This document shows positions 22,059-42,876 of a stretch of DNA of 64,000 nt, one piece after another; within the stretch, counting starts at the first letter, position 1, and each line of letters opens with the position of its first letter. This DNA comes from Melioribacteraceae bacterium. Its GTDB lineage: Bacteria; Bacteroidota; Ignavibacteria; Ignavibacteriales; Melioribacteraceae. The translations under genes and the position numbers were made by a program. The notes beneath the pieces were generated by a model that saw only the letters and a list, made by a program, of their open reading frames with translations, was not told the DNA's origin and ran no database searches. The stretch covers positions 1 through 64,000 of the forward strand of contig BQMY01000087.1 of NCBI GenBank assembly GCA_022181065.1, given 5' to 3'.

Positions 22059-24289
22059 ATTTCCACCTTGATATAAGCTGAGGGAAAAACAGGAAGCATA
22101 TTTACACGCTCACCAGAATCTTTGTCGTAATAGTAGATGTTTTTACGATTATACGCGTTCAGCACACTTGCTCCGAATGTAACATCCGCATTATATATTT
22201 TGGTTTTTTTAGATACACTGAAATCAAGTCGATGATAAAAGGGTAATCTGCCGGTATTTCTTCCATCCCAGAAAGTGCTAGCGAGGAACGAGTTGATGTT
22301 AAGAATCGGATCGAGTGATACTTCGGGTCTGTCGTAAAATCCGATGATTGGAGTAAACGGCATACCTGATCGGAGCGACCAGTTTGAAGTGATCTTCCAG
22401 TTGGAACCGAGATCAAATCCTGCAAGCAGATTTACAGAGTGTCGGGTATCATAACGGGGGTGATATTTTTCACCATCTCTCGTTTTGTATGCCCAACTGA
22501 GTGTATATGAAGCGGAAATGAACATCATATCAGGTTGGAACTTTGCGAGTGCCTCGAGTCCGTATGCTTCACCTTCAACATTTATATAATCGCCGAACAA
22601 AGAGTTGTATTTACGATTATTCAGGTCAATAAGATTCGAGAGGTCTTTATAATAGCCTTCAAGTTCAAAAGTCATTTTTTCAGAGAAGAAAAATTTAATT
22701 CCCGCGATGTAGTGAGTTGCGTGCCCGGAGTTAACATAATCGGGGATTATGATCCAGGGTTCGAAGATGGAGATTAATTCATTTTCGTTCGACACAGTCG
22801 CGATTTCCTGAGAATAGCTACCGAATGCCGCTTTAAGGGCAATAAAAGGTACGGGACGATAAGTAACTTTCATGCGTGGTTCGAGTAGAAACGGACGTTT
22901 TTCCGAAAGTCCGGTTAATATAGCTCTTACACCAATATCAAAACCAACATGATCCCAGCGAAGGAATTTATAATTTGAGTAAACACTCATTTCCCAACCC
23001 TCCTTGGCATAATTCGTTTTTACACCGTACAAGTTGGTTAATTGAAGCGAGGTATTCACTATTCTGTTCTGCAATCCGAAACGAAATTCATCCTTGCTAT
23101 CATACATGTATGTGAAATCAAGGTTTGCGGTAATGTCGCTAACTTCATTGGTACGTGGTTTTGAGTTACTCAGTTTGGGATTAACATCCGCCTTGTAACC
23201 ACTGTAGGCAAAGACAAATTTTGAGAAAAGTGGATTGCTCCAAACTTTATTCCAGTTGAAACCAAATATTTTATTGCTCACGGAAAAATCTTCAATGAAC
23301 GGGTCGTCGTATTTCACTTCATCCCCTGAAATAAAACCATGCACAACAAACTTTCCATCGGGGTCTATATCGGGATTACCGTAATTGGCTTTAAATGAAA
23401 TATCGTAAAAATCAAATGGAGCGCCGTCATTGTTGAGGTATTTTTCCAAAATGTCGGCATAATAGCTTTTTCGTCCGGTCACGAGGAATGATCCGTAGGG
23501 AATAGGTCCTTCAACGGAAACACGTCCGGCAAGAAGACTCGCGTTCGCGGTAGCCTGATAATTTTTTTTATTACCATCGCGTGTTTCAATATTAAGGATA
23601 GAAGAGAGTCTTCCGCCATATTCCGATTCAAATCCACCTTTGTGGAATTCGAGGATCGATATCATTTCCGGGTCGATAACAGAGAAGATACCGAGAGCGT
23701 GGAACGGATTGTAGATCGGGGCACCATTAAGCAGGATAAGGTTCTGGTCACCACCACCACCGCGGACATAATATTTTGATGTAACATCGCCGGTAGTATT
23801 TACACCCGGGGCTGTCTGGAGCACCCGAAAGATATCCGGTTCCGCGCCCACCGGCTGCATTTCAATTTCCCTAGCGGTAATTTTTTGAATCCCGAGGTCA
23901 GTTTCATTGGGTCTTACTTCCATTTCACCAACAACGTTCAATTCCTGCAATTGAACAGAAGATGGTTTAAGCTGTACATCAAGTTCCAAAGTTTTGTTAG
24001 CAATGATCTCCAAAGTGATCACTTTGGGTTCATAGCCTAAAAAAGAGAAGATGATTGTTTGTTTTCCTGCCGGAATAGAAGGAATGAAGTAATAACCCTC
24101 CGAGTTTGAAGGGGCACCCAATGTAGTACCCTTAACGAACACATTTGCGTAACCAATTCTCTCACCGTTAGTGGTATCGGTTACGAATCCCCTGATTTTA
24201 CCCGTAGTTATCTGTTCTTGCGCGAGGCAGGTAATTACGGTAATCAGGAAAAACAGGGTAGTGTGGAGTAGAAATTTTGAATTAAACAC
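22055..24289 (-). CDS. TonB-dependent receptor
   Basis: This 744-residue outer-membrane receptor has a signal peptide (to about 23), a CarboxypepD_reg-like domain (about 30-108, GKIRGFVTDTTNGERIGYANV), a plug (about 125-240, with YYVRGGGGDQNLILLNGAPIYNP and GGFESEYGGRLSSILNIETRDG) and a 22-strand-type barrel to the C-terminus, which ends in an aromatic/hydrophobic strand (AYIKVEI). It imports an unidentified ligand using TonB energy. The gene lies between the permease pair (90-bp gap with a long hairpin) and the DUF4249 lipoprotein. Confidence 0.9.
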   Translation of the reverse strand: MFNSKFLLHTTLFFLITVITCLAQEQITTGKIRGFVTDTTNGERIGYANVFVKGTTLGAPSNSEGYYFIPSIPAGKQTIIFSFLGYEPKVITLEIIANKTLELDVQLKPSSVQLQELNVVGEMEVRPNETDLGIQKITAREIEMQPVGAEPDIFRVLQTAPGVNTTGDVTSKYYVRGGGGDQNLILLNGAPIYNPFHALGIFSVIDPEMISILEFHKGGFESEYGGRLSSILNIETRDGNKKNYQATANASLLAGRVSVEGPIPYGSFLVTGRKSYYADILEKYLNNDGAPFDFYDISFKANYGNPDIDPDGKFVVHGFISGDEVKYDDPFIEDFSVSNKIFGFNWNKVWSNPLFSKFVFAYSGYKADVNPKLSNSKPRTNEVSDITANLDFTYMYDSKDEFRFGLQNRIVNTSLQLTNLYGVKTNYAKEGWEMSVYSNYKFLRWDHVGFDIGVRAILTGLSEKRPFLLEPRMKVTYRPVPFIALKAAFGSYSQEIATVSNENELISIFEPWIIIPDYVNSGHATHYIAGIKFFFSEKMTFELEGYYKDLSNLIDLNNRKYNSLFGDYINVEGEAYGLEALAKFQPDMMFISASYTLSWAYKTRDGEKYHPRYDTRHSVNLLAGFDLGSNWKITSNWSLRSGMPFTPIIGFYDRPEVSLDPILNINSFLASTFWDGRNTGRLPFYHRLDFSVSKKTKIYNADVTFGASVLNAYNRKNIYYYDKDSGERVNMLPVFPSAYIKVEI

Positions 24290-24298
24290 TAAATAGTT

Positions 24299-24357
24299 TT
24301 CCTGCTATATTTGTAAGTCGGTCAATTTTAACACCAAACTTACAAATAAAGCAGGAA
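24299..24357 (-). other. 20-bp-stem hairpin between permease and receptor genes
   Basis: TTCCTGCTATATTTGTAAGT (24299-24318) is complementary to 24338-24357 with one mismatch, around a 19-nt loop. On the coding (minus) strand the T-run precedes the stem and does not follow it, so it is a poor terminator. A processing or stability element in a polycistronic mRNA is more likely. Confidence 0.5.
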
Positions 24358-24380
24358 GAAAAAAAATACTTAAATAACCC

Positions 24381-25613
24381 CTATTCGTATCGAAGAGCAT
24401 CTATCGGATCAAGGTTAGACGCTTTAACCGCAGGGTAAACCCCGAATATTACACCGACTAAAGTGGTTACAGTCAGACCAATTAAAATCCAGTCAACAGG
24501 TAAAATCACACTCACTCCAAGTATGAGAGCAACAAGGTTTCCGGAGAGGACCCCGAGGATAATACCGATCACACCTCCAATCTGGCACAATACAATTGCC
24601 TCCACGAGAAACTGCGTTCGGATGATTTGTTTTTTTGCCCCGATAGCCTTTCTGATTCCAATTTCTTTTGTACGTTCCGTTACAGAAACAAGCATGATGT
24701 TCATGATGCCAACTCCTGCGGCTACAAGCGCGATAAAAGCTACAATACCCGCGCCGTACCTGAAATATTTTGTTATATCATTGAATTGTGTAATAAGCTG
24801 GTCATTTGTGATGATCTCAAAATTATTATCTTCACCCGGTTCAACTTTACGCAGGATGCGTAATATACTTATTACCTGATCCATCGTCTCGGAAAGCTGA
24901 CTTTTTTCAGTAGCCATCACAGTGATATTCGCGTCTCTGTCGCCGCCATATTTTTTGAGAAATATAGTGTAGGGTATCACCAGGAAATTGTCTCTTCCCG
25001 CGCCAAGCATACTGCCAAGTTTTTCGTAAACACCAATCACCCTTATGGAAAGGTTATCTATTTTTATTTCCTGTCCGATGGGGTCAACATTGGGGAACAG
25101 TTTATTGGCAACATCTATTCCTATCACAGTAACAGCTCTACTCAGTTCAACATCCTGGCCTGATAGGCCTCGTCCGCTTTCAACTGTTAGCGCGTCAATG
25201 AGCATGTAATCGAGATTAGCGCCTATCACGGTGACATCCGGATTGGTAGATTCACCGTCAAATTTTACAGTTTGTCCGCCACGAACCAATTGCAATCCAA
25301 CTGCTCCAGGAAGAGATGCCATTTCCTTTAGTTTGAGAGCTTGATCTACTGTAAGATCAGGGCGGTTACGGTATTTCCTCCATGAGCCGGGTGTATGAAT
25401 TGCGGGAAATTTGCGAATAATGAAGTTGTTTGAACCTATTGAATTGAAAACATCCTCAAAACTTTGCTGTATTGCACCCAATGCGGTCATAACAACGATG
25501 ATAGAAAAAAGCCCGATTGATATACCCAACAGAGTGAGAACAGATCTCAATTTATTTGAAACAAGCGAGCCAAAAGCCATTTTTATACTTTCAAAAATCT
25601 GCATATTATTCAC
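24381..25613 (-). CDS. MacB/FtsX-like ABC transporter permease (second of pair)
   Basis: This 410-residue protein has an N-terminal membrane segment (about 22-45), a large periplasmic MacB_PCD domain (about 50-275) and a C-terminal FtsX domain with three membrane segments. The coupling sequence SVTERTKEIGIRKAIGAKK follows the second membrane segment. Type VII ABC systems of this kind do not import; they move lipoproteins or signals across the envelope using an ATPase partner. No ATPase gene is adjacent. Its start overlaps the end of the upstream permease by 8 bp. It ends 91 bp before the TonB receptor, which may be co-transcribed. Confidence 0.88.
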   Translation of the reverse strand: MNNMQIFESIKMAFGSLVSNKLRSVLTLLGISIGLFSIIVVMTALGAIQQSFEDVFNSIGSNNFIIRKFPAIHTPGSWRKYRNRPDLTVDQALKLKEMASLPGAVGLQLVRGGQTVKFDGESTNPDVTVIGANLDYMLIDALTVESGRGLSGQDVELSRAVTVIGIDVANKLFPNVDPIGQEIKIDNLSIRVIGVYEKLGSMLGAGRDNFLVIPYTIFLKKYGGDRDANITVMATEKSQLSETMDQVISILRILRKVEPGEDNNFEIITNDQLITQFNDITKYFRYGAGIVAFIALVAAGVGIMNIMLVSVTERTKEIGIRKAIGAKKQIIRTQFLVEAIVLCQIGGVIGIILGVLSGNLVALILGVSVILPVDWILIGLTVTTLVGVIFGVYPAVKASNLDPIDALRYE

Positions 25614-26841
25614 TCCTCAATGCGTCAACAGGATCAAGTTTGGAAGCCCTGTAAGCGGGCAGCAATCCGGATATTATCCCCACCATCGCGGAGATGAACA
25701 GGGAAATAATAACGATGTAAAAAGGCATCGCGGTAGGTAAAATCTGATCAATTATTAAACTGAGTACAAATGATATTGCCAGCCCTATAAGTCCCCCTAA
25801 GATGCAGATGATCGCAGCCTCGGTCAGAAATTGAAACATAATAGCCCAGGTTTTCGCGCCAATTGCCTTCCTGATACCAATTTCCTTTGTTCGTTCGGTT
25901 ACAGAGACGAACATTATATTCATAATACCGATAGCCCCGACGAAAAGTGACAGTGCAGTTATAACCAATCCGGCTATCGCGACAACACCAACAGTTTTAT
26001 CGTACATTTCCTTAAATACTTCCTGGCGGTTAACTGCAAAATCATCAGGTTCGGAAGGAGGAACTTTTCTCGCGATCCTCATGATTGCCCTTATTTCGGC
26101 TTTAGCGTCATCCATATTATTAACATCACCAACTTTTACGTCAATACGCATTCGTCCCCGGCGCATTCCGAAAGTTTTTTCAAATCGTGGAAGGGGTAGA
26201 TATATTTCACTATCAGCGCTATTTCCACCAAACAAACCACTACCTTGTTTTGCAACGACGCCTATTACGGTCATTCTGTGCCCATTAATCTTGACGTCTT
26301 GCCCGACGGGATTAAAAAAAGGAAAAAGAGCGTCTTTCAGATCAGATCCTATAATACAAACATTTCGCCCGGCGGAAACTTCATGTTCTGTAAAGAAACG
26401 TCCATCTTCGATTTCGAGACCGGAGGTTTTCATATAGTCCTGATTGGTTCCATATATACGAGATGCATCGACAGATTTTTCATCCCGTTTTACAGAAGCA
26501 CCGAACGTTCTTTTAAGAGGAGCCATCGCCTCATAATTTTTCAGATCGGCTTTTAATTTTTCGTATTGATCATATGTGATCTCTTTTCTGTTTCGGTAGT
26601 ATGACCAGTCCTTTCCCCCGAACCATTCAAATTTATCAACATATAAAACGTCAGAGCCCAACGAAGAAATAGATTGCATAAAAGCTGTCTCGAGTCCGAC
26701 TATAGCGGTTGACATTGTGGTAACGGCAACGATACCAATAATTATCCCCAGAGTAGTGAGGAATGAACGCATTTTATTAGCTCTGATAGCCCTCAAAGAG
26801 ATAAGGATGCCTTCTTTCAGTGCGATAATGTTTTTCAGCAT
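25606..26841 (-). CDS. MacB/FtsX-like ABC transporter permease (first of pair)
   Basis: This 411-residue paralogue of the next gene has the same layout: N-terminal membrane segment (about 22-48), MacB_PCD periplasmic domain and C-terminal FtsX domain. It carries the same near-identical coupling stretch SVTERTKEIGIRKAIGAK. The pair probably forms a heterodimer, as two half-permeases must combine, and arose by tandem duplication. It is the first gene of the minus-strand block; its promoter must lie in the 312-bp gap shared with the divergent lipoprotein gene. The ATP-binding subunit must be encoded elsewhere. Confidence 0.88.
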   Translation of the reverse strand: MLKNIIALKEGILISLRAIRANKMRSFLTTLGIIIGIVAVTTMSTAIVGLETAFMQSISSLGSDVLYVDKFEWFGGKDWSYYRNRKEITYDQYEKLKADLKNYEAMAPLKRTFGASVKRDEKSVDASRIYGTNQDYMKTSGLEIEDGRFFTEHEVSAGRNVCIIGSDLKDALFPFFNPVGQDVKINGHRMTVIGVVAKQGSGLFGGNSADSEIYLPLPRFEKTFGMRRGRMRIDVKVGDVNNMDDAKAEIRAIMRIARKVPPSEPDDFAVNRQEVFKEMYDKTVGVVAIAGLVITALSLFVGAIGIMNIMFVSVTERTKEIGIRKAIGAKTWAIMFQFLTEAAIICILGGLIGLAISFVLSLIIDQILPTAMPFYIVIISLFISAMVGIISGLLPAYRASKLDPVDALRSE

Positions 26842-27153: not shown

Positions 27154-29523
27154 ATGAAAATCAGAATTGTGATATTAATGTTGTTTTTGGTTTTATACGG
27201 ATGTTCCTCATACACGGAGCTATCACCGGATCCTGAAATAACACCTGCTGAACTTGGTTATATCGAGTTAAAAAATGACGATGAACATTTCGAACTTGAA
27301 ACCGGTGAAAAGTATTATGTTCAATTTCCGGCGCCTGCTAACTCGAACTTCTATCTTGTGCTAAAACTCGACAGTAAATCAGGAGTAGATTACTATTTCT
27401 CTGATTTCTTCGATGATGGCGAAGGAGATTTTAACAAAATTACTGATGAGTTTGGCAATGATGCCGAGTTGAGTGTTTATAAAATCAATCCGGGTGGTGA
27501 ATTTTATTATTGGGTTATCGACAACGTGAGGAGCAACAAACTTCTTACGATGGATTATCGATACGTCCCTCAGTGGCGCTTCAAATTTGAGAACAGGTAC
27601 GAAACTTACAAAACTATCCTTGATGACAACAGAATTGATCGTTCTATTTATAACGCAATTGATGAAAACTACAATCTTTCCGGTATTAACTACTCATACG
27701 AGATTGGTAAATTAAAAATTTCGATAGAAGCTATTGGAAATATGGAACAAGAACTAATTGATCTCAAATCATTATTCCCATCGAATATTTCCAGCAGTAG
27801 TGATCCGGCTTACCAAAACTATAGAGAACTAACCTCCGCGGTGGAAGATGAATTGCAGTTTCAGCGTAATTATCTTGCCGCGCTTGAGATATTCCAGCTT
27901 GAAAACAGAACCGCCGGAAATACCGGTGAATTTGTAAGTAACGCGGACAAATTCCTCAACTTCATTAACAATAACCCCGTAATGCCCTCGAGAATTATTA
28001 ACAAGGCAAAAAATCTGTTTGCGGGCAGACTTGATGAGACTTATGAATACCTGAACAATTTGCTGAAAAATAAATATGATACAACTCCCATCAATCTCGA
28101 TCCGCCAATTGAGGTTGTAAGAGAATTGTATGAAAAATCGACAAGTTCAGTACCACTAAGATTTACTACTCTTTGCAACTTTGTGAGTAAATTTAATCAG
28201 GAAGCTGAAGCACTGATGCTGGTTAATGACAAGTTGATCGAACTGGATAATTTCTTCAATGCGGAAGGAAGTTGGCCATCAAATCTCTTCTATCCTGAAG
28301 CGATCAGAATGATAAAGGATATCATACCTCTAATACCGAGAAGTGAACTTTCAAGCTATAGTCCTTTCAGCAGTTACAGATGTACTTCCGCGTTGCAGAG
28401 AGAGTTGATTAACGTAAGAAATAGAACCAATAGTATGCAGGATGGTTTCCAGGTTGCGAAAGTGCTGGTGCCAAGGATAAATGAGCTTAAACTTTCCCGC
28501 TCATACAAGAATATTATTACAGTGCTGAATCAGAATAGAAATCTCGATTTTCTTTTGAAGCAGTATCCCGATCTTGATATGCTGGCTCTTAATCAGCACA
28601 GAGACAGAATAAACTCATTCCTGGCTCAGGAACAATGGGCTCAGGCTGAGGAAGAAGTTAAGAAGATGTTCCATGATCAGTCTTTTATCTTTTATTCATC
28701 TGTTCGGGATAAAAAAATCTCAATGGTCAGAGATTTTGAGAACAAAATTTTTACCGGAATCAAAAAACATACAAGAGAAACACTCGAGAAGTTTGCTCAG
28801 AATAATTTCAACAATGTTGATAATGTTGAGCAGCTATATCAGGGCCCGGTATTCCGACCTGTACACGTACTTACTTTCTCATCATACGGTGAGAAAGATC
28901 TTGAGCGTAAAAAACTGGAAATCAGTGACTACATTGAGAATGTTAAGCATAACAGTTTCCCTGAAATTTCAATCAACTCCATCTACAAAGATTTTCTGAG
29001 AAATAAATCGAGAAAAGGCGTTGAAAAATGTCGCGCGATTGTTGTCCATGGAAATTATTACCGTGGAAATGACCGAAGAGTAAAAAATATTGTTGATGAA
29101 TGTAATCCGCAGGTTCCTAAATGGATCACCAAGGCGAAGGAATATCGCGTTGTAAATGCTTTGCCGGTTACTTCAAATCCAAATGGCAATAACGAGTACC
29201 TGTTCAAGGTGCAGTTGCAGATACCTACTAACGCGGAATTTCCGGTGTATGATATAAATATCAAACTGCCGAAAGAAGTCGCGGATAACGCTTCTTCAGC
29301 CAAGTGGTATAAAACTATAACTCTTGACGGCAAGGAAATTAAAAATGAAGGCAGAATACAGCTAACCGCTCCAACTGCTGATAATAATTACGAGTTTCAG
29401 GTATCGCCGGTACAAATGGATAAGGAAGGACGTAATATTCTGGAAGTAAGATTTGACTTCCCGGCATTCAAAGTTCTTGAAGTTAGTACTATGGCGCAAA
29501 GACCGATAATGAAAAGGAATTAA
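27154..29523 (+). CDS. Large unrecognised lipoprotein heading an ABC importer cluster
   Basis: I do not recognise this 789-residue protein. It has a lipobox (LVLYGC, Cys 17). Residues about 30-165 look like a beta-rich domain (FELETGEKYYVQFPAPANSNFYLVL). The centre, about 170-640, is mostly helical with repeated hydrophobic heptad-like stretches, suggesting a helical-repeat scaffold. The last 110 residues are again beta-rich (YLFKVQLQIPTNAEFPVYDINIKL). There are no catalytic motifs. The gene precedes a family-5 solute-binding protein by 26 bp and is plausibly its outer-membrane or periplasmic partner, for example a ligand presenter or a complex organiser. That role is inference from position only. 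Confidence 0.6.
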   Translation: MKIRIVILMLFLVLYGCSSYTELSPDPEITPAELGYIELKNDDEHFELETGEKYYVQFPAPANSNFYLVLKLDSKSGVDYYFSDFFDDGEGDFNKITDEFGNDAELSVYKINPGGEFYYWVIDNVRSNKLLTMDYRYVPQWRFKFENRYETYKTILDDNRIDRSIYNAIDENYNLSGINYSYEIGKLKISIEAIGNMEQELIDLKSLFPSNISSSSDPAYQNYRELTSAVEDELQFQRNYLAALEIFQLENRTAGNTGEFVSNADKFLNFINNNPVMPSRIINKAKNLFAGRLDETYEYLNNLLKNKYDTTPINLDPPIEVVRELYEKSTSSVPLRFTTLCNFVSKFNQEAEALMLVNDKLIELDNFFNAEGSWPSNLFYPEAIRMIKDIIPLIPRSELSSYSPFSSYRCTSALQRELINVRNRTNSMQDGFQVAKVLVPRINELKLSRSYKNIITVLNQNRNLDFLLKQYPDLDMLALNQHRDRINSFLAQEQWAQAEEEVKKMFHDQSFIFYSSVRDKKISMVRDFENKIFTGIKKHTRETLEKFAQNNFNNVDNVEQLYQGPVFRPVHVLTFSSYGEKDLERKKLEISDYIENVKHNSFPEISINSIYKDFLRNKSRKGVEKCRAIVVHGNYYRGNDRRVKNIVDECNPQVPKWITKAKEYRVVNALPVTSNPNGNNEYLFKVQLQIPTNAEFPVYDINIKLPKEVADNASSAKWYKTITLDGKEIKNEGRIQLTAPTADNNYEFQVSPVQMDKEGRNILEVRFDFPAFKVLEVSTMAQRPIMKRN

Positions 29524-29549
29524 TTCTGAATAAATTTTAGGAAGGTTTT

Positions 29550-31280
29550 ATGACAAACAGGCAATGGATAATAGCCGGTGGTGGTGTAGCGGTTTTTGTT
29601 GTAGTTCTGCTTTTTTTCCTTTTGGGTGGAAATCTTGATGGAAGAATAGTACTGCCATACATAGCGCATCAAAAGCCATTAGTCGATCCGCATTTACCAG
29701 GTTCAACCGAACTCGCGGATAAACTTGATGAAGTGATTTTTGACGGATTATTTAACAAATCAGCTAATCCAAGCGGAATTGTATTTGAAGACGCCCTGGG
29801 CACTTTCGTTGGTATTAACAGTAAAAACGTTGTTACGGTAAAACTTAATACAAACAAAAAATGGCATGCCTCTTATAAAGTAACTGTTGAAGACGAGGAT
29901 GTTAAAGTTACTCCGGCTGATACCCGATACTTCACTCCGGAAGATTTGAGATTTACTCTTAACAGAATTAAAATGTTGGGAAGTCTTTCTCCGGAATATG
30001 TTTTGGTTGGTCAAGGCTTGAAGGATTTCAACTTTACCGGTCCGGATGCATCAGGGAATGTTCAGTTTTATTTTCAGGGTGACAGGGAATGGACAGAAGC
30101 GGATATTAAAGAAATACTTGCTTTCAAAATTCTTCCGGCAAACTCTGAAAGAAACGCTCTCTCATATCAGACAGGTACCGCTGAGTATCTTGCCATACCT
30201 GGTGAAAATAATGTGAACAATTATTATAAAGTACCCGACGGACTTGCGAGCATTCCATCGGTTCAGTTGAAGCCGTTTATAGATAACTCTACTTTTGTTA
30301 CTGAACTTAACAATACGAATATTAACGTGCTGCTGAATGTCCCTTTTGGTGCTGTTTCTCCCGTACTCGATGATCCTGATGATTTTTTCTCCAAACCTTC
30401 TATAAGTACAACTTTTTTCGCCGTACTGTTCAATACACAACGACTCAACAGAGAACAACGCGTGGAATTGAGAAAGTTGCTTAACAACAAAAAAATTATG
30501 GATCGTTTCTATAAAGTCGGCACAGAACAGCAAAGAAATATCGTTGACTATCTTGGCAGAGAAAACAATTACGACAGATTCCTGAACTACAGTATCTTCC
30601 CATCAACTTCTTACTATCTTGAAGAGCAGGTGATTATGCCTGAAGCACCCGGCGGTAACGCAAACTTATCAATTCTGCCCGATACCGTGAAGATAAAAGC
30701 TTGCGCCGAGTTTGGAAACAGGGAAGAATATAATGAGTTAATTGATGTGATGAATGATCCCGCGTTATTCAACGGGAAGGTTAAAGTTTCGGCAGCCGGT
30801 AATGACGAAATAGTCGCCGGAAACTATGACGCGGTGCTAATCGCGTTTAACGGTTACAAGAGCACATTTTTGTTCGATCTATACAGTATTCTTCTTCGCC
30901 AGCCAGACCTAAGTCTCTATAAAATCAACTTGTTGACTCAGGAAGCGGGAAGAGGTAAAACTGAAGCTGCTTTGAGTTCATGGAACTCCCAGAATAACTT
31001 CTTCAGAATTGAAGGATTGAAAAATTCATCCGACAAGGAAGATTTTGCTAAATTGTTGGAATTTACATACAAGTTTATGTCAACACAGTATATCAGCGAC
31101 AAGCAGGAATATGCTCGCAGAGTTGATATGGTAGAAAACGAACTGGCATTAGGGTCGTGGATGTTTTCAGTGCCTTCACTCTCTTATTTCTCAACTCAAT
31201 TTGACAGTACCTCGATTGATTTGTTCGGGGTGGCATCGCAGCTTTCAACTATTGAAAAATGGAAAGACGCGGAAGATTAG
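29550..31280 (+). CDS. Family-5 solute-binding-like protein with N-terminal membrane anchor
   Basis: This 576-residue protein has a single uncleaved-looking membrane segment at about 6-27 (IIAGGGVAVFVVVLLFFLLGG) in place of a lipobox. The body resembles extracellular solute-binding family 5 (peptide/nickel type): an early ELADKLDEVIFDGLF segment, VTVKLNTNKKWHA, and FTPEDLRFTLNRI, which matches the family's Thr-x-Glu-Asp-Val block. The usual conserved aromatic peptide-contact residues are hard to place, so the fold is more certain than the ligand. It follows the large lipoprotein gene and lies upstream of Dpp-like permease genes, with a repeat island in between. Confidence 0.7.
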   Translation: MTNRQWIIAGGGVAVFVVVLLFFLLGGNLDGRIVLPYIAHQKPLVDPHLPGSTELADKLDEVIFDGLFNKSANPSGIVFEDALGTFVGINSKNVVTVKLNTNKKWHASYKVTVEDEDVKVTPADTRYFTPEDLRFTLNRIKMLGSLSPEYVLVGQGLKDFNFTGPDASGNVQFYFQGDREWTEADIKEILAFKILPANSERNALSYQTGTAEYLAIPGENNVNNYYKVPDGLASIPSVQLKPFIDNSTFVTELNNTNINVLLNVPFGAVSPVLDDPDDFFSKPSISTTFFAVLFNTQRLNREQRVELRKLLNNKKIMDRFYKVGTEQQRNIVDYLGRENNYDRFLNYSIFPSTSYYLEEQVIMPEAPGGNANLSILPDTVKIKACAEFGNREEYNELIDVMNDPALFNGKVKVSAAGNDEIVAGNYDAVLIAFNGYKSTFLFDLYSILLRQPDLSLYKINLLTQEAGRGKTEAALSSWNSQNNFFRIEGLKNSSDKEDFAKLLEFTYKFMSTQYISDKQEYARRVDMVENELALGSWMFSVPSLSYFSTQFDSTSIDLFGVASQLSTIEKWKDAED

Positions 31281-31655
31281 TTTTTGTTGACAGGGGAGTT
31301 TTTAGCTCCCCTCAGTCTGTTGACAATCTCGTTCCTCTTTAAAGTCCTCCTTCGAAGGAGGTGGATTCCGACGAATGTCGGAAGACGGAGGATGATTTAT
31401 TGCATTTTTTGTAACTTTTGGTCATCCCCCATCACAAAATCCGCCGCTGGCGGAGTGATTTCCCCCTTCAAACCTGTGCGCCTCAGGCGTAAGGGGGACG
31501 TGAAAATTAACTACCAGGTTTTCAACAATCACCAGTAAGTTTTTGACTTTCCTTTTTTTTGTAGTGTCAAATGAAATTTCCTCCTTTTGGAACAAATCTT
31601 TCGCCATGATTGTGTATCTTTCGAAAGATAATTTTCATCCAAGTTCGAGTGGTAA
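31281..31655. repeat. Repeat island 2, inside the importer cluster
   Basis: No gene is credible here. Hairpins seen are GGGGAG..CTCCCC (31293-31311), the palindrome CCTCCTTCGAAGGAGG (31346-31361), TTCCGACGAATGTCGGAA (31366-31383) and TCCGCC..GGCGGA around 31440-31455. The unit from 31350 (TTCGAAGGAGGTGGATT, AAGACGGAGGATGATT) is homologous to 18155-18205. After 31540 the sequence is AT-rich and may hold a promoter (TTGACT at 31543) for the permease genes. Confidence 0.65.
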
Positions 31656-32510
31656 TTGCTTAGAAAAATTCTGATCATACATCTGCTGGTATTCCTTCTG
31701 ATACAAGCGCAATCGGGCGAAAAATCTGATTTTCTGATTGTAGAAAATCCTCAGGCTCTGACTATATACGACAAGTATCAACAGAGTTTGGAGCAGGGGC
31801 AGCTTTCCTCATTTCCGCAGTACGTACCTTACCGGATTATTGAGCCACTTGGCACTTTTAGCGATGGTTTAAGGAAATATGTAAAAGTCGAATTTGATTC
31901 TGACGAATATTTCCTTCTCGCCGAAAAAGAAAACAAACCACTATCTTCTCTCGAGTTCGGGAAGAGTTTCCTGCTCAGGAATAAATCGGTTTTCAAAGAT
32001 ACAATCGATATAAATTTGAATAATAAATTACTCATTCGTTTTCCCGATTCTCAGCAGAAAATCTATCTCAACTCCGGTGACAGACTGCTAAGGATTTTCA
32101 AGGATGTGACCGAATACTATATTTATAGCTTCAATCTTGATAGATATGGCTGGGCGCGTTTCCCGGCTGAACTTGAGGGGAATGTCTGGGAAAAGCACAC
32201 AACCGGATTATTAGCGCTTTCTGTTGGTTACGGGGAGATAATAGAACGAGTAAGGGAAAAAACAGAAGAGTACAATAAAGTAATACTTTCACTTTTTCGT
32301 CACCTCAACAATAAAACAGATAAAAACCTTGCTATGCCTTACTGGGCAATCAATGAACAGGATAATTACACAGATGTTCAATTTGTGAATCACCAGAATA
32401 GTTTTAGTGAATCGGTGAAAGAAATGCGCGAAGAAATAAAGAAGATCATCTCAATATCTTCGTTCTCATACGAGCAGTTTGAGAATGGAATCAGGATAAT
32501 AAGAAATTGA
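31656..32510 (+). CDS. Unrecognised exported protein in importer cluster
   Basis: I do not recognise this 284-residue protein. It starts at TTG 31656 (weak GAGTGG RBS) with a typical signal peptide (MLRKILIIHLLVFLLIQAQ). Residues about 30-150 are beta-rich and may be an SH3-like or two-domain sandwich (YVPYRIIEPLGTF..KYVKVEFDSDEYFLLAE). The C-terminal 90 residues are helical and charged. Its TGA stop overlaps the TTG start of the permease gene (shared 32507-32510), which ties it tightly to the transporter. A periplasmic regulator or adaptor of the importer is a guess. Confidence 0.6.
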   Translation: MLRKILIIHLLVFLLIQAQSGEKSDFLIVENPQALTIYDKYQQSLEQGQLSSFPQYVPYRIIEPLGTFSDGLRKYVKVEFDSDEYFLLAEKENKPLSSLEFGKSFLLRNKSVFKDTIDINLNNKLLIRFPDSQQKIYLNSGDRLLRIFKDVTEYYIYSFNLDRYGWARFPAELEGNVWEKHTTGLLALSVGYGEIIERVREKTEEYNKVILSLFRHLNNKTDKNLAMPYWAINEQDNYTDVQFVNHQNSFSESVKEMREEIKKIISISSFSYEQFENGIRIIRN

Positions 32511-33646
32511 ATATCAAAAATATCATACGGAAAAGTCTGAAGTTTGATAATATGAAGGGAGTGATCCTCGTTACACTTCTGTTTTTGATATCCTTTTTTA
32601 TCGCGAGGAGCTATAAAGCTTATTTAGTTGAAAACAAAAGTGATTCATTTTCGGAATTTCTCGCCTTACCGGAATTTAATGTAAATGATTCGATGCATCG
32701 CCAGCTTTTGAAAGAAGCGCTGAATTCATTCTATCCGGAACAAATTGAAAAAAACGAGAAAACAGCAAACGAACTGGAAAGGTATGTAGTCGAGAAATTT
32801 ACTAATCCACTGTTTAAGGAGGGAGCAGACCGGGGATTTCTAACATTTGGCAAGATACCGGATATTATCCTACGGTTCATTCCGTTTGTGATAATTTTTC
32901 TACTAGTACTTGGAATTACCTATTATGGCGCAGTTACACTCGGTACCATCAAATATCTGAACTACAAAAAGAAAAGTGAATCTGTAGTGTTAACTCTCTT
33001 TGATTTTATCAAATCTGAAATTAACAGAAACAACTTTTTCAGAGATAAAAAATTCTGGCAAAAATTACTGACGTATTCTGGATTAATAATAATTAAAATG
33101 TTTGGCTATCTGGTATTATTTTCACCTGCTTACGTGGCAGCTTATGCCATGCGGACAAAAATTGATACAGATACTTATCCATTTCTGATTCTTCTTGCGG
33201 TTTTTACTAATGGCATTTTAATAAACTACATCAACAAGTTTTATACTTTTTTGCTTCACGAGGGGAATAAGGGTTATGTGGAAACAGCGCTTGTAAAAAA
33301 TCTTGATGAAGATTATAACAATGAAAAATATTTCAGCACGAAGTTGTTGTTCAAGATTCAAAAAAAGTTTGATGGTCATGTCTTCGGACACATATATAAA
33401 AACGCTGAATTTCAGTTTGTGCAGGGTATCAAGGATATGGCATCATTCCTTATCACAGGTTTGATAATAATTGAAATGGCGTTGAATATTCAGGGGCACT
33501 TCGGTTACGAATTATTAAAGCAAGTGTTGTACAATAATTACGATGTTGTGATCTTTTACATCTATCTGATTTTTCTTCTCGTAAAAATAACAGAATACTC
33601 GGTTGATTCATTTGATAACTTTTTGAAACGGAAATATGCAAACTAA
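32507..33646 (+). CDS. Diverged DppB/OppB-like ABC permease
   Basis: This 379-residue inner-membrane protein begins at TTG 32507 inside the previous stop codon. Six membrane segments are visible (about 18-36, 122-147, 195-216, 222-245, 312-332 and 345-365), with a long periplasmic stretch after the first, as in DppB-type permeases. The C-terminal block LIIIEMALNIQGHFGYELLKQ and a final SVDSFDNFLKRK align with the DppB ending (usually LIxEx..IPGLG.LL and D.LYALLDPR). The EAA loop is poorly conserved. It overlaps the partner permease gene by 11 bp. Without the neighbours it would be hard to classify. Confidence 0.6.
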   Translation: MNIKNIIRKSLKFDNMKGVILVTLLFLISFFIARSYKAYLVENKSDSFSEFLALPEFNVNDSMHRQLLKEALNSFYPEQIEKNEKTANELERYVVEKFTNPLFKEGADRGFLTFGKIPDIILRFIPFVIIFLLVLGITYYGAVTLGTIKYLNYKKKSESVVLTLFDFIKSEINRNNFFRDKKFWQKLLTYSGLIIIKMFGYLVLFSPAYVAAYAMRTKIDTDTYPFLILLAVFTNGILINYINKFYTFLLHEGNKGYVETALVKNLDEDYNNEKYFSTKLLFKIQKKFDGHVFGHIYKNAEFQFVQGIKDMASFLITGLIIIEMALNIQGHFGYELLKQVLYNNYDVVIFYIYLIFLLVKITEYSVDSFDNFLKRKYAN

Positions 33647-34532
33647 CATGAAGAAATATATTTCCCGGGCGAAAGATTTTATCAGCCGCGTTTATGATAA
33701 TAAAGATATCCTCTGGATAGGGATATACATTTCCGGGATGCTGCTTCTGATATTATGGGATAGTTTATTTCTAAACGCGCCCGCGTTTTCGAAAGTATTC
33801 ACCGCGTATATTAATTCAATATTTGCCGGAATTCTGGTGATCGTTTTTGCTGCCGTGTTGGGTTGGGGAGCCGCTCTCGCGGAGTACTACACCCGTAAAA
33901 AAGGCAACAAGTATCTGATCACTATCTGGGATTTGTTCGTAAACATGTTTAAGTCGGTTCCACAGATCATCGGCATTCTGGTGGGATATATTTTCCTGGC
34001 AATTCTTATTTCACACGAGGTGATCACAGGGAGCTTTTTTCAGCTCTTCTGGATGGCTGTAACTATCTCGTTTTTTGTGTTTATAGAGATTAAAGAATTA
34101 CTCGAAGAAAGAATTGAATATTACTCTCGCTCCGACTTTTTTAACGCGATGCTTTGCTGCGGAATTAAAGAGAGCAGAATAATCAATTATGAAATATTCT
34201 GGAAAAATAGCAGGGACCATATAATCCAGAAGTTGATCTCCATTTTGGGGATAACAATATTCTTGCAATGCAGTATCGATTTTATTGTATCGGTTGGACT
34301 TACATCCGGTGTATCACTTACTAATTTCCCGAATACACTTGGTAACGTGCTCGCAAAACTGGATAGCAAACAGGATATACTGGCAATGGGTAATTTGTTC
34401 TCCGATCCATTATATCTTCCAAAACTTTTTACTACACATCTTCAAGGAATAAATATCGCGTTTCTGATCACTTTCACATTGCTTTCGCTATATAAAATTT
34501 CAAACGGCTATCTGCGCAGGAAGGGATTGTAG
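33636..34532 (+). CDS. DppC/OppC-like ABC permease
   Basis: This 298-residue permease has about six membrane segments. The recognisable core includes GWGAALAEYYTRKKGNKYLIT, VNMFKSVPQIIGILVG and an EAA-type loop, RSDFFNAMLCCGIKESRIINYEIF, which contacts the ATPase. The N-terminal anchor region resembles DppC. The start is given at ATG 33636, overlapping the previous gene by 11 bp and preceded by CGGAA; ATG 33648 is possible but lacks an RBS. It ends immediately before the TTG of the ATPase gene. Confidence 0.75.
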   Translation: MQTNMKKYISRAKDFISRVYDNKDILWIGIYISGMLLLILWDSLFLNAPAFSKVFTAYINSIFAGILVIVFAAVLGWGAALAEYYTRKKGNKYLITIWDLFVNMFKSVPQIIGILVGYIFLAILISHEVITGSFFQLFWMAVTISFFVFIEIKELLEERIEYYSRSDFFNAMLCCGIKESRIINYEIFWKNSRDHIIQKLISILGITIFLQCSIDFIVSVGLTSGVSLTNFPNTLGNVLAKLDSKQDILAMGNLFSDPLYLPKLFTTHLQGINIAFLITFTLLSLYKISNGYLRRKGL

Positions 34533-36020
34533 TTGAAAGAATTTAACTTCAATATTGAGATTGCAAAAAAGGGTAAAGAGATCGTCTCGATTGAAAAATA
34601 CCGGTTTACGGAAAGTAAAATTACGTTTCTGTTTGGTGAATCGGGTATCGGAAAAACGCTCGCCAACAAGGCAATATTTGGATTACTCGATGAATCACTC
34701 CTTGATGTTAAAATCAACGGTCTTAATTATTCCGCGTTTAAGAAGCATGAGGTCTGCAGGGATTTCCGTAATAACGGTTTTTTTGTATTTCAGGAGCCTT
34801 CATCACATCTAAATCCGCTGATCAAAATCAGTGAACAGATGAATGAGGGAGATATTGGCGGAAGCAGGAATGACAAGGAAGTGCTTGAACAATTGTGGCG
34901 AAAACAATTTGATAGTTTTTACAAAAATGTAATCGATATTTACCCCAAGCCATATCGTCCCAGTGGTGGTGAAAAACAAAGAGTCCTGGCTGCGATGGCA
35001 TTTAAGAAACTTAGAGTACTCAAGAATTATGATTCAAGAAACTTGTATGTTTTTGATGAACCGACAGGAAATCTCGATAATTATTTTCGTAATGTGTTTA
35101 TCGATAACCTGATTGAGCAATATATAAAACATCGTTTTACTTCAGTCTTTATTACTCATGATTACTCTATCGTGGCTTATATACAGAAGCGGTACAGCAA
35201 ATTACTCAGCGATATAGAATACAAGGAGTTGTATCGTGCGGGAGAAAAAAGTAAACTCAGAAAATTTGATTCCGCGGAATTTTTGAAATATGATTTTAAA
35301 AAACTTGCTAGAAACAGCAAGGGGAGCGGTCAGTTAAAACTGGCTGTAAAATCGGGTATAAAAGTTTTCGAGCGGGAACTTATATTCTCAAAAAATGAGG
35401 ATACCAATTACCGGGCTTCCCTGAAGGTTAACAGCGGTGAAATTACTTATCTCAAAGCGCCAAGTGGAGAGGGGAAAACTACAATCCTCAAGATAATTAT
35501 GGGTCTGGTTAAAGCAGATGAGTTTGCGATACGGTTTGAAGATAAAATCGTTGATCAGACAACACTACCAAAATTCTGGAGCGAAGTTATTTGGGGTAAA
35601 GTTGCCGGAATTGTTTTTCAGCACGCCGATGAAGCACTAAACCTTAATTCAAAAGTAAAGGAAGTTTTTCAGGCATTACCTTTGGAAGAGGAACTGACCG
35701 ATTTGGATATTATCTCCAAACTCAATGAAATCTTTGATGAGGAAATAACTGAAGAATTTATCAACAAAAAGACAGGGCAACTATCGGGCGGACAAAAACA
35801 GAAGATAAATTTATTGCGCACCTTTATGCTCGATACCGATATAATTCTGCTGGATGAACCAACCAGCGGTATGGATTTCAACAGTATCAAGAAATTCCTC
35901 GTGATGCTTCAGAAAAAATTGAAGGAGAATAAAGCAATCTTGCTTGTATCCCACAATGAAGATATTTTCGATCCGCTGGTGGATGAAGAAAACAGATATT
36001 ACCTCAAAACAACGGATTAG
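34533..36020 (+). CDS. Tandem-domain ABC transporter ATPase
   Basis: This 495-residue protein joins two ABC nucleotide-binding domains, as if DppD and DppF were fused. Domain 1 (about 1-230): Walker A GESGIGKT, Q-loop FQEPSSHLNP, signature RPSGGEKQR, Walker B YVFDEPTGNLD and H-loop ITHD. Domain 2 (about 260-495): Walker A PSGEGKTT, a divergent Q-loop FQHADEALNL, signature LSGGQKQK, Walker B IILLDEPTSGMD and H-loop VSHN. All catalytic residues look intact in both halves. The start codon is TTG 34533 with an AGGAAGGG RBS. The C-terminal oligopeptide-binding extension (Fe-S Cys motif) of the Dpp ATPases is absent. Confidence 0.88.
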   Translation: MKEFNFNIEIAKKGKEIVSIEKYRFTESKITFLFGESGIGKTLANKAIFGLLDESLLDVKINGLNYSAFKKHEVCRDFRNNGFFVFQEPSSHLNPLIKISEQMNEGDIGGSRNDKEVLEQLWRKQFDSFYKNVIDIYPKPYRPSGGEKQRVLAAMAFKKLRVLKNYDSRNLYVFDEPTGNLDNYFRNVFIDNLIEQYIKHRFTSVFITHDYSIVAYIQKRYSKLLSDIEYKELYRAGEKSKLRKFDSAEFLKYDFKKLARNSKGSGQLKLAVKSGIKVFERELIFSKNEDTNYRASLKVNSGEITYLKAPSGEGKTTILKIIMGLVKADEFAIRFEDKIVDQTTLPKFWSEVIWGKVAGIVFQHADEALNLNSKVKEVFQALPLEEELTDLDIISKLNEIFDEEITEEFINKKTGQLSGGQKQKINLLRTFMLDTDIILLDEPTSGMDFNSIKKFLVMLQKKLKENKAILLVSHNEDIFDPLVDEENRYYLKTTD

Positions 36021-37706: not shown

Positions 37707-37773
37707 TTGACCTTCTTTGGAAAGATTTATTTCCTATATTGCACTTGTAACGGGCAACTATCACGGGGGATAT
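37707..37773 (+). promoter_or_regulatory. Duplicated promoter/leader of the secreted-protein paralogues, copy 1
   Basis: The 67 bases before the gene align with 41182-41249 before the second paralogue: TTGACCT, then CTTT.GAAA.ATTTATTTCCTA, then AACGGG and an SD-like GGGGGA. TTGACC at 37707 and TATATT at 37735 keep the same 22-base spacing in both copies. This conservation marks promoter and leader, though the spacing differs from classical sigma-70. Confidence 0.45.
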
Positions 37774-40572
37774 ATGAGATATCAGTTTACTGTTATCTTT
37801 TTGATGTTTACTGCAATAACTCTTTTAGCGCAAGCGAACACATTTATTCATAAAAACTACTATTACTACGAAAATCTTTGCTTTACGATAGACTCACAAC
37901 AAAACTCAATCATATTAAAAGCTCAACCTAACGGCAAACTATACCTCGCAAAGTACGATGAGTCGGGTTTGTTTGTCACGAAATCCAACACATTTTCAGG
38001 GGTTAAACCAAAATTCGACCGGATAGCAACCTCAAACAGTGACGATATTGTTGTAGTAATGGATCAAACATATTCAACCAAACCAATAATGTATATTTTT
38101 GATCAGAATCTGCTCCTCTCTGATTCCTTGGAACTTCCGCAGCTGGAATTGTATAATTTACTCCGGATTGCATCCTCAGGTGAAAAGATCGCGTTTTTAT
38201 CACACGATCAAGACAATGAGTATTTTCTTGGAATCAAGACAGACACAGATACTCTGGATTGGATCATCAATCTTCACGGTTCATTTACTTCAAGTCGGAA
38301 TACTGCGTTAGGATTCACTCCGTCGGGCAATATTTTTGTCGCACACTCGGGAAATTTAATGGCTCTCTACTCTCCGGAAGGTGCAGAATTATGGTCTGGT
38401 GATTATAAATTCGGCTCTCTTTCCTCTGCTTCTGATGAGTACTTCTACTACCATGAGGCAAATAAATTTTTCAAAGTTTCATTCAATACCGGGGTTGTGT
38501 GGTTCAAAGAGTTTGATAATTCGCAATCCAGATATGTTGCACGTCTGCAAAATGATTATGTATTTATCGGGGAATCGGGTAGTCAAAAAACGAAGTTTAT
38601 AATTTTTGATTCTGATGGTGCGGAATACCGAACCGAAACGATCGATAAAATTACCGGTTATTATAATTGTAAATCGTATGGTAACAGTATTATTGCGCTG
38701 GACAGGTATAACTTCCTGAAATTTGATACAGATAGCCAGTTTAAGGGAGTTTACTACTGGTTGAATTTCCGGACAGTCAATCCGGGTGCTTCGGTGATCA
38801 TTTATCCTTTTGTATTTAATGTGGGAGCTATAAACCTCTATTATTCTTCCAACCTGCAGAATTGGGAGATTATTGGGTCGGGATTACTCCCCGATGACGA
38901 TGGAATAACCTGGAAAGCGCCAGATATTCCCGGAACATACTATCTTAAAATTCAGGATTACGACAATCCGGAGATAGCGACAATTTCCGATTTACCGATA
39001 GCAGTAAATTATTATCCTGTAACTGAATATATTCACGCCAATAATATTTTCATGTGGGCAGGCGCTAACGGTATGGGTTCGCACGATCCCCGGTCTGATG
39101 ACAGCGGACTTTACTGGGATGATCAGGGGGATGAAAGTCTATTCACAGTTTTTGCCGACGGACCTGTATTCGGATTTGTACGGGATGATTCCGCAAGGGT
39201 TTACGCAAGTACTTACAGGTATGCATTTACACCCGGTATTATAAATGAAGATGGTAGTTACACACAACCGGGTGACAGCAGTTTCTTCATTTACAAAGCA
39301 GCCAAAGATTGGGAGAACCTTCCCTCAGGCGAAGACAAATTTAAATTTGAGTATGCTCGGAACAACTGGCCCGCGGAGCATGGTGCCCCATTCATTGATA
39401 ATAATTTAAACGGTACTTATGAACCCGATATTGATGAACCGGATGTTGAAGGTGAACAGATGATGTGGTGGACAAACCATACAGCGGACTCAGCGACTTC
39501 AGCATTTGCCTATGGCAGTTACGGCGATAAACTTGAAATTCACACCAGTGTATGGGGAAGTGAAGAACCTTTCCCGGATGTGGTTTATAAACGTTACAAG
39601 TTCATAAATGAAAGTGATAAAACACTTGAAGATTTTTATTTTGGATATTGGGCAGACCCTGATGTAGGAAATGCCACAGATGATTATGCCGGATTTGATA
39701 CACTTCTAAATCTTGGTTATTGCTATAACAGTGATGAAAATGATGACGATTATTATCTCAATAAACCCGCTTCAGTTGGATATCTTCTTCTCGATGGACC
39801 GGTAACGCAAGGTACTACTAATGACACAGCAAGGTTTGATGGAGAATTGCGAACCGGATACAAAAATCTTCCGATGACAGCTTCTCACTTTTATATAGGT
39901 GGAAGCGCGATGTATTCAGATCCTGATCTTGGTGTGTATGATGGAACCAAACAATTGTATAACCAACTCATTGGTAAATTGTGGAGCGGGGAACCCATAA
40001 TAGAACCGGTATCAAGAGATACAACTCAATTCGTATTATCGGGACAGCCGGAGACTGGAAGTGGATGGTATGAAGGTGCCGGCTGGCCCGGAGGTCCGGT
40101 TGGTGGTGACAGAAGAATTCTCCTCTCGTCAGGTCCATTCACTATGGAGCCGGGGGATACGAATATGGTGATTCTGGCGATTGTAAACGCAAGGGCTTCG
40201 GGAAGAATTAACAGTCTGGTGAAAGTGAAACGACTCGGGCGTCAGGTTCGCAATGAATGGTTATATGGTATTATTACCGATGTAGAAGAGGAAAATAATT
40301 CAATACCTGAAAAATTCACGCTCTCACAAAACTACCCCAACCCGTTTAACCCGGTTACTTCAATTGAGTTTTCATTGCCGGAACAGAGCAATGTGAAACT
40401 GGAAGTCTTTAACATACTTGGTGAAAAAGTAGCCGTGTTGGTTAACGCTGAAATGAAAGCGGGCACACATAAAGTCAATTTTGAGGGTTCAAAACTTTCG
40501 TCAGGTGTTTATGTTTACAGACTTAAGGCAGGTGAAATAAACCTTGTTCGCAAGATGATGCTTCTTAAATAG
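37774..40572 (+). CDS. Secreted T9SS cargo protein, long paralogue with beta-propeller-like N-terminus
   Basis: This 932-residue protein has a signal peptide (MRYQFTVIFLMFTAITLLAQ). I start at ATG 37774 behind CGGGGGA; an in-frame TTG at 37717 would place the signal peptide internally. Residues about 25-320 consist of repeated short beta strands (a WD- or PQQ-like propeller is possible). About 330-410 form a beta-sandwich. From about 415 (YIHANNIFMWAGANGMGSHD) to about 840 it shares a domain with the two following genes. The C-terminus is a T9SS type A sorting domain (SQNYPNPFNP .. GVYVYRLKAG). It is thus exported by T9SS and probably surface-attached. The function of the shared domain is unknown to me. 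Confidence 0.75.
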   Translation: MRYQFTVIFLMFTAITLLAQANTFIHKNYYYYENLCFTIDSQQNSIILKAQPNGKLYLAKYDESGLFVTKSNTFSGVKPKFDRIATSNSDDIVVVMDQTYSTKPIMYIFDQNLLLSDSLELPQLELYNLLRIASSGEKIAFLSHDQDNEYFLGIKTDTDTLDWIINLHGSFTSSRNTALGFTPSGNIFVAHSGNLMALYSPEGAELWSGDYKFGSLSSASDEYFYYHEANKFFKVSFNTGVVWFKEFDNSQSRYVARLQNDYVFIGESGSQKTKFIIFDSDGAEYRTETIDKITGYYNCKSYGNSIIALDRYNFLKFDTDSQFKGVYYWLNFRTVNPGASVIIYPFVFNVGAINLYYSSNLQNWEIIGSGLLPDDDGITWKAPDIPGTYYLKIQDYDNPEIATISDLPIAVNYYPVTEYIHANNIFMWAGANGMGSHDPRSDDSGLYWDDQGDESLFTVFADGPVFGFVRDDSARVYASTYRYAFTPGIINEDGSYTQPGDSSFFIYKAAKDWENLPSGEDKFKFEYARNNWPAEHGAPFIDNNLNGTYEPDIDEPDVEGEQMMWWTNHTADSATSAFAYGSYGDKLEIHTSVWGSEEPFPDVVYKRYKFINESDKTLEDFYFGYWADPDVGNATDDYAGFDTLLNLGYCYNSDENDDDYYLNKPASVGYLLLDGPVTQGTTNDTARFDGELRTGYKNLPMTASHFYIGGSAMYSDPDLGVYDGTKQLYNQLIGKLWSGEPIIEPVSRDTTQFVLSGQPETGSGWYEGAGWPGGPVGGDRRILLSSGPFTMEPGDTNMVILAIVNARASGRINSLVKVKRLGRQVRNEWLYGIITDVEEENNSIPEKFTLSQNYPNPFNPVTSIEFSLPEQSNVKLEVFNILGEKVAVLVNAEMKAGTHKVNFEGSKLSSGVYVYRLKAGEINLVRKMMLLK

Positions 40573-41100
40573 TGCTGAGTGGTAAGTGCTGAGTGGTAAG
40601 TGCTAAGTACTGAGTGCTGAGTGAATAGTGAGGTGTCTGAGCGGTGTCGAAGACCCGTTATAGCAGGGTGGATTCCCGACCCTTTCCCGCTTCGCGGGAC
40701 AAGCGACCGCTTAGGAGCCTTGTATGAAAGAAGGTTGATGAGTTATATCGCCTGTCCCGCACAAGCGGGGAACCCCCGGGATTAAGAGTAACCAGCAGTG
40801 TCCGGCCCTTCGAGACACCTCAGGGACCTCGTATAGAAGAAGGATGCTGAGTTTATCGCTTGTCCCGCAGAGCGGGGAACCCCCGTCAGAGCAAAGTGGA
40901 TTCCCGGCACTTCGATGGTTGGTGAGGTTCTCGAACCACAGGGACCTTTTAATATAGAAAAGGAAAATTAAACAATTGTTTTTAATTCCCTGACTTTTGA
41001 CGAACGACTGAAGACTAATGACTATTACCCGGCTCTTCCCCGCACACGGGACAGGCGAGTGATCTCAGGAACCTTCCACTAAATGTGTCTGAGATTTTCA
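40570..41100. repeat. Repeat island 4 between two paralogues
   Basis: The island begins at the stop codon of the long paralogue with a clean array of AGTGCTGAGTGGTA-like units (40570-40625). Palindromic ~20-bp units lie at 40685-40703, 40751-40770, 40859-40877 and 41038-41055. One copy of the TGGTTGGTGAGG..CGAACCA element lies at 40916-40938, and an ACT-rich array (ACGACTGAAGACTAATGACT) at about 41000-41026. No gene is supported here. Confidence 0.85.
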
Positions 41101-41181
41101 AAGTAATATATAGTATTACGACTATATATTTCAGGTTTAAGGTTGGACTTATTAGCTCTAAACGTGTAAAGAGAAGTTTTC

Positions 41182-42869: not shown

Positions 42870-42876
42870 GGGGAGG

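Follow-up and report, generated by a model that had tools for sequence, protein, structure and literature searches.

What kind of system results when recognisable parts of a peptide importer stand in one gene cluster with exported proteins of no known family? The question is raised by six open reading frames (ORFs) on one strand, denoted g1 to g6, that together occupy 27154-36020 of a 64,000-nucleotide stretch of contig BQMY01000087.1 from a Melioribacteraceae bacterium (the window). They encode a lipoprotein (g1), a substrate-binding protein (g2), a second exported protein (g3), two permeases (g4 and g5) and a fused double ATPase (g6). Our answer, held tentatively and at slightly less than an even chance, is an Opp/Dpp-family (type I) ATP-binding cassette (ABC) importer that works as one fixed, envelope-spanning complex for a narrow ligand. 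Profile comparisons show descent of parts from Opp/Dpp, most weakly for g4. The engine is thus of a kind already known, and what makes the system new is the fixed binding protein, the rod-shaped lipoprotein and the SH3-like partner. A preliminary description of this DNA had placed six same-strand genes at 27154-36020, where the ORFs were confirmed, and had read them as a 789-residue lipoprotein of no recognised family, a family-5 binding protein on a membrane helix, an unrecognised exported protein, strongly diverged DppB-like and DppC-like permeases, and two ATPase domains with intact motifs in one chain. The homologues collected here bear out these assignments, well for g5 and weakly for g4.

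The six genes belong together. In a sample of 345 genomes of the window's phylum, g1, g2 and strong g5 matches occur in exactly the same 11 genomes (11 of 345 for each), and g3 is present in 10, all within those 11; these searches used g1, g2, g3 and g5, and g4 and g6 were seen adjoining g5 in loci of all 11. No genome among the 345 carries g1, g2 or g3 without g5, in keeping with the earlier proposal that the unfamiliar genes would be found only beside these permeases. Within the same family, g1 was present in 4 of 33 genomes besides the window's own, in differing neighbourhoods. A wider scan of one genome per species, with g2 as query and two short peptide patterns, found 81 relatives, of which 80 were kept, giving 76 loci; because only the two short patterns were used, this number is a minimum, and cultured members may have escaped the scan. 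All 76 loci are titled as metagenome-assembled genomes or uncultured; they come chiefly from Ignavibacteriota, Calditrichota, Fibrobacterota and Bacteroidota, and one locus each is labelled Chlorobi, Zixibacteria, Latescibacterota and Raymondbacteria. In every locus with at least 2.5 kb of upstream sequence (66 of 66), g1 is found no more than 1.2 kb upstream of g2. Of the 76 loci, 35 satisfy length limits for all six genes, the others being cut by contig ends, split, or affected by broken or shortened ORFs. Since homologues share the same gene order across phyla, g1-g6 are more than chance ORFs, and that explanation was rejected. Extra genes stand between core genes in some loci and, judged by eye, are dissimilar to each other.

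The identity of g2 emerges from its family. The window protein has no Pfam or NCBIfam match at E up to 1; PF00496 is found in 45 of 65 family members (best E 5.8e-13), and hhalign matches g2 to ordinary Dpp binding proteins at 97.2% (E 3.5e-11) over 265 columns, corresponding to the N-terminal half of g2. Comparison of the g2 profile with solved binding proteins gave no match. By these profile matches g2 is a diverged family-5 (cluster C) binding protein, as belongs to an Opp/Dpp system. Textbook peptide importers have free or lipidated binding proteins; g2 has neither form, but a membrane helix and no lipobox. An N-terminal hydrophobic helix is present in 65 of 69 g2 sequences, and a Cys within the first 45 residues in two of the 69, both times inside the helix, which probably stays uncleaved.

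Mean pairwise identity was compared across the 35 loci within the length limits for all six genes, near-identical loci included (for example, L105 and L117). It is highest for g2 (57.1%), followed by g5 (49.5%), g6 (46.8%), g4 (40.4%) and g1 (38.9%), and lowest for the fastest-evolving protein, g3 (23.0%). The identity of g2 exceeds that of g6 in 595 of 595 locus pairs and that of g5 in 93%. The order is reversed in three ordinary Dpp operons of the phylum, where the ATPases (33.8-38.6%) lead the binding protein (27.9-33.7%). So frozen a g2 suits one fixed ligand, or a structural role; because it is so strictly conserved, one narrow ligand seems a better candidate than mixed peptides.

The transport core was assigned in the same manner. 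For g5, PF00528 is found in 11 of 44 family members (best E 9.3e-8), hhalign against DppC gives 96.3% (E 1.5e-9, 214 columns), the coupling region is among the conserved parts, and the best solved relative is Mycobacterium tuberculosis DppB (E 0.0041). Judged by these matches, g5 is a diverged DppC-type permease of the Opp/Dpp family. For g4, six transmembrane (TM) helices are predicted, with a periplasmic loop after TM1; NF045470 (Opp2B) matches 14 of 47 family members (best E 1.4e-4), and the g4 profile has no credible relative among solved structures. Because its profile match to DppB is weak, the assignment of g4 as a diverged DppB-like permease, itself weakly supported, also leans on gene order and the TM pattern. 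No FtsX-type domain (PF02687, PF12704) was found at E up to 1 in the window's g4 and g5, nor in 44 g5 sequences, the other g4 sequences having been scanned with NCBIfam only. Across 42 g6 sequences, the residues of Walker A, the Q-loop, the signature, Walker B (its Glu) and the H-loop vary hardly or not at all, so that both ATP sites are intact and the two nucleotide-binding domains (NBDs) of an Opp/Dpp importer are present in one chain. The three-Cys Fe-S pattern occurs in 0 of 43 g6 sequences, the window's g6 having one Cys. A profile search of structures returned M. tuberculosis OppD and DppD as the best solved relatives of g6.

The lipoprotein g1 belongs to no Pfam or NCBIfam family: the window protein has no Pfam match at E up to 1, Pfam searches with 12 g1 sequences gave nothing below E 0.016, and the g1 profile found no credible match among solved structures. 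Its presumed lipid attachment site is Cys17, which is preceded by a hydrophobic stretch and shows a conservation of at least 90% in 64 sequences, the window's included. A strict lipobox pattern accepts 47 of 66 g1 sequences; of the 19 that it misses, among them the window's, 18 have a Cys after a hydrophobic stretch and one has a truncated start. The AlphaFold2 model (mean predicted local distance difference test score (pLDDT) 90.8, predicted template modelling score 0.56) starts with a beta-sandwich close to the lipid anchor, continues for about 510 residues as mostly long helices and ends in a second, C-terminal beta-sandwich. With VIA-align, the first sandwich reaches Z 7.7 within residues 17-146, as a common beta-sandwich arrangement, and the C-terminal one has a shape like the ColG collagen-binding domain (Z 7.6). 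Conservation is lowest, apart from the signal, in the rod (0.38-0.51), rises to 0.63 in the tail beside the lipid, and peaks towards the C-terminus, at 0.68 for the sandwich and 0.82 for the last eight residues. With conserved ends and a variable rod, g1 looks like a tether that works at both ends, as far as conservation can indicate. Matches to enterotoxin and neurotoxin chains (Z 7-8) were dismissed as a common beta-sandwich shape of no functional meaning. An internal duplication suspected in the 882-residue g1 of locus L044 was not confirmed by self-BLAST.

The second exported protein, g3, has a hydrophobic N-terminus in 51 of 56 sequences and a lipobox in 0 of 56. Pfam gave weak, scattered matches below its cut-off (SH3_3 in one of 55, E 0.01), the g3 profile no credible match among solved structures, and a profile comparison of g3 with g1 no relation. 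The AlphaFold2 model (mean pLDDT 92.1) contains two SH3-like domains (about residues 23-104 and 105-186) and an alpha/beta domain (187-284). The SH3 matches by VIA-align are TagH (Z 7.3) and an NlpC/P60 endopeptidase and lysostaphin (both Z 6.9), families outside the VIA-align listing remaining possible. The top Foldseek match is the integrative model 9a7d with YrvJ, at E 5.2e-4 but a TM-score of 0.20. The best VIA-align rows pair the C-terminal domain with trehalose-6-phosphate phosphatases (Z 8.4, 71 residues), a likeness set aside as a common alpha/beta arrangement.

Among known systems, M. tuberculosis OppABCD and DppABCD share with the cluster the Opp/Dpp family, two NBDs per chain and a membrane-held binding protein; unlike them, g6 has no Fe-S Cys motif, and we know of no rod lipoprotein or SH3 protein in either. 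The published account describes two NBDs in the single chains of OppD and DppD, NBDs connected with or without an Fe-S domain, and binding proteins that are lipoproteins (PMC12136057), in contrast to the membrane helix without lipobox of g2. In view of this precedent, the earlier statement that ordinary peptide importers have two separate ATPases is not supported, and the fused ATPase does not set the present system apart. The C-terminal Fe-S Cys motif had likewise been taken as a mark of ordinary importers; its lack in g6 is indecisive, because the motif is usual but, by the same account, not universal (PMC12136057). Escherichia coli DppABCDF has, like the cluster, a binding protein, two permeases and two NBDs; its binding protein is free in the periplasm, its two ATPases are separate and each carries a 4Fe-4S cluster, and its DppB bears a periplasmic scoop motif after TM1 (PMC12136057), the place at which g4 has the loop that may correspond to it. 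The YejF/microcin C importer ATPase model NF011713 aligns with g6 residues 18-478 in one run, at 101.6 bits versus a cut-off of 834, so that g6 is not a YejF member. Wall regulators of the FtsEX-EnvC type, in which an ABC engine is coupled to periplasmic wall partners, offer a possible analogy; their permease belongs to another family, of which no match was seen in the window's g4 and g5 or the 44 g5 sequences. Pfam and NCBIfam name no such six-gene system, and a literature search, thin on subscription papers, found no described equivalent. The view of the locus as a distinct, undescribed system therefore stands within those bounds.

In the importer that we propose, the lipid of g1 would sit in the outer membrane, the rod would span the periplasm and the conserved C-terminal sandwich would dock on g2. 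The latter would be fixed to the inner membrane through its N-terminal helix, adjoining g4 and g5, and g3 would sit next to g4, where its two SH3-like domains may bind peptidoglycan. A ligand collected or steered at the wall or outer membrane would be taken by g2 and moved, presumably inward, through g4 and g5 by ATP hydrolysis in g6. A wall- or envelope-derived peptide is our first guess for the narrow ligand, and a doubtful one.

Several observations weigh against this model. That g1 docks on g2 is guessed from conservation and not drawn from a modelled complex, and the outer-membrane placement of g1 assumes lipoprotein sorting rules. The resemblance of g4 to DppB is weak (hhalign 57%, E 1e-4, 63 columns). 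The SH3-like matches of g3, at Z 7.3 at best, lie within common arrangements by VIA-align, and the g1 rod matches spectrin-repeat and other long helical chains (Z 7-10.4) in arrangement only, with a root-mean-square deviation of about 20 Å. The ordinary-operon control for conservation is small (three operons), with one pair nearly tied (33.7 versus 33.8 and 35.1). Not every set was found whole: g3 was not found in phylum genome G058, where the order is g4-g5-g6-g1-g2 followed by a 120-residue ORF, neither g3 nor g4 turned up in G377 and G383, and G388 gave no g4 match, the completeness of these last three genomes not being reported. Finally, the window's own genome also holds an ordinary Dpp-like operon (G000:C138 10000-23389, L155), made up of two permeases, a binding protein whose start resembles a lipobox and, in divergent orientation, two separate ATPases.

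That last point bears as well on the plainest alternative, an ordinary peptide or murein-peptide importer of this group with two group-specific minor accessory proteins. Descent from Opp/Dpp fits such an importer, and other systems also have fused ATPases and binding proteins held at the membrane (PMC12136057). However, with an ordinary Dpp-like operon in the same genome, plain peptide uptake would not need the six-gene system, and the accessory genes are kept in the positive phylum genomes (g1 in 11 of 11, g3 in 10 of 11), where minor parts would be expected to go more often; we consider this alternative unlikely. Still less credit is due to an exporter, or a system for lipoprotein or outer-membrane assembly, derived from an importer. 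Export and assembly pathways typically include outer-membrane lipoproteins and rods, but a binding protein together with permeases of the Opp type marks an importer, both ATP sites are intact, and no constant neighbour family was seen, no search having been aimed at outer-membrane barrels. We regard it as highly improbable.

A more serious contender is an ATP-driven envelope machine that imports nothing, in which g2 would be structural or sensing and the g6 cycle would move, or signal to, the outer membrane or wall via g1 and g3. FtsEX, which drives wall hydrolases, provides the analogy. Such a machine would account for a g2 that is both anchored and the most conserved component, as the binding protein in the three ordinary operons is not; the modelled g1 resembles a long tether conserved at both ends, and SH3-like shapes of the kind predicted for g3 also occur in wall enzymes. 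The loci also have no constant neighbour family, the largest groups of similar neighbours (unannotated) numbering 15 and 7 of 76 loci and the rest at most five. Yet g5 is Opp-type with a conserved coupling region, window g4 and g5 lack any FtsX match, and the N-terminal half of g2 still aligns with ordinary binding proteins over the 265 columns given above. A non-importing machine thus seems possible, though on balance improbable. Somewhat less likely again is its boldest form, a trans-envelope actuator or sensor converted from an Opp-type transporter and already present in the ancestors of much of the FCB superphylum, in which g2 would be the permanent core and ATP hydrolysis would be transmitted through the g1 rod to the outer membrane for sensing and not for delivery.

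We therefore return to the fixed importer as the preferred reading. This one importer branch has acquired two partners, which are hardly ever absent, and its binding protein is membrane-fixed and more conserved than the ATPase, an arrangement kept across several phyla of mostly uncultured bacteria. If the complex does span the envelope, it shows how cells with two membranes can connect an importer straight to the outer one. The six genes are also a clear set for tests in groups with a little-known envelope biology.

Some genomes carry the set in pieces. For 13 loci without g5 beside g2, two of which (L061 and L067) are just near a contig end, a genome-wide search found g5 in 13 of 13 genomes, g4 in 10 and g3 in 11. 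In G381 and G382 (Calditrichota) the set lies in three pieces, g1-g2, g3-g4 and g5-g6; G385 has the same look, but its g2 contig does not extend far enough to show g1. The pairs left together by these splits hint at physical partners. In three Calditrichota genomes with g5-g6 separate, a lipoprotein-like ORF of 150-158 residues stands directly before g5 and overlaps the g5 ORF (L173 2727-3176, L174 5775-6248, L175 5952-6407).

The g2 tree requires 12 changes for 10 taxonomic groups, compared with a shuffled mean of 35.9, and a recently spread cassette was on that account rejected as the main story. Because the tree tracks taxonomy with some exceptions, the system looks old and mostly inherited, and its patchy distribution suggests many losses; some transfers are possible, as Calditrichota and Ignavibacteriota need five changes each and Bacteroidota four. 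Loci labelled Deltaproteobacteria (L061) and Caldisericaceae (L118) fall inside Calditrichota branches and are probably mislabelled bins. A match in G033 (E 2.6e-4) was rejected as a 101-residue ORF antisense to a 1174-residue ORF. In the phylum sample, 14 further weak g5 matches (E 2.4e-8 to 9.1e-4) were set aside; of 13 regions examined, three are complete ordinary Dpp operons, the reference operon included, and the other ten are unsettled. A search of viral contigs gave nothing of use.

Features of the cluster are collected in the table. The preliminary description had the last four genes linked by overlaps, which is true of g3/g4 (4 nt) and g4/g5 (11 nt), whereas g5 and g6 merely abut. The g2-g3 gap measures 375 nt in the window against a median of 30 nt across 52 homologous loci. 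It contains a 40-base double palindrome that has 35 genomic copies (at most two mismatches) versus 0 for a reversed control pattern; this interspersed repeat is not a component of the machine. A promoter and terminator scan of the cluster gave results not clearly above shuffled controls.

Table. Positions of the six genes and their features within the window
Feature	Position	Strand	Description
g1	27154..29523	+	789 aa; exported lipoprotein, no known family
g1 Cys17 codon	27202..27204	+	presumed lipid attachment site; next residue Ser in window
g1 N-terminal beta-sandwich	27262..27570	+	residues 37-139; AlphaFold2 model
g1 helical rod	27571..29118	+	residues 140-655; AlphaFold2 model
g1 C-terminal beta-sandwich and conserved last 8 residues	29119..29520	+	sandwich residues 656-781; model, conservation
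g2	29550..31280	+	576 aa; family-5 (cluster C) substrate-binding protein, membrane-anchored
g2 N-terminal membrane helix	29568..29624	+	residues 7-25; hydropathy 2.95, no lipobox
Interspersed double-palindrome repeat	31345..31384	+	40 bases, in g2-g3 gap
g3	31656..32510	+	284 aa; exported, two SH3-like domains and C-terminal alpha/beta domain (predicted)
g4	32507..33646	+	379 aa; diverged DppB-like permease (weakly supported)
g5	33636..34532	+	298 aa; diverged DppC-like permease
g6	34533..36020	+	495 aa; fused double ABC ATPase
g6 NBD1	about 34533-35207	+	PF00005 stretch
g6 NBD2	about 35388-36017	+	PF00005 stretch

Divergently upstream of g1, on the minus strand (22055-26841), are two permeases of the MacB/FtsX type and a receptor that combines carboxypeptidase-regulatory with TonB plug domains. 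Downstream, 37717-44514 encodes three consecutive proteins with type IX secretion C-terminal sorting domains.

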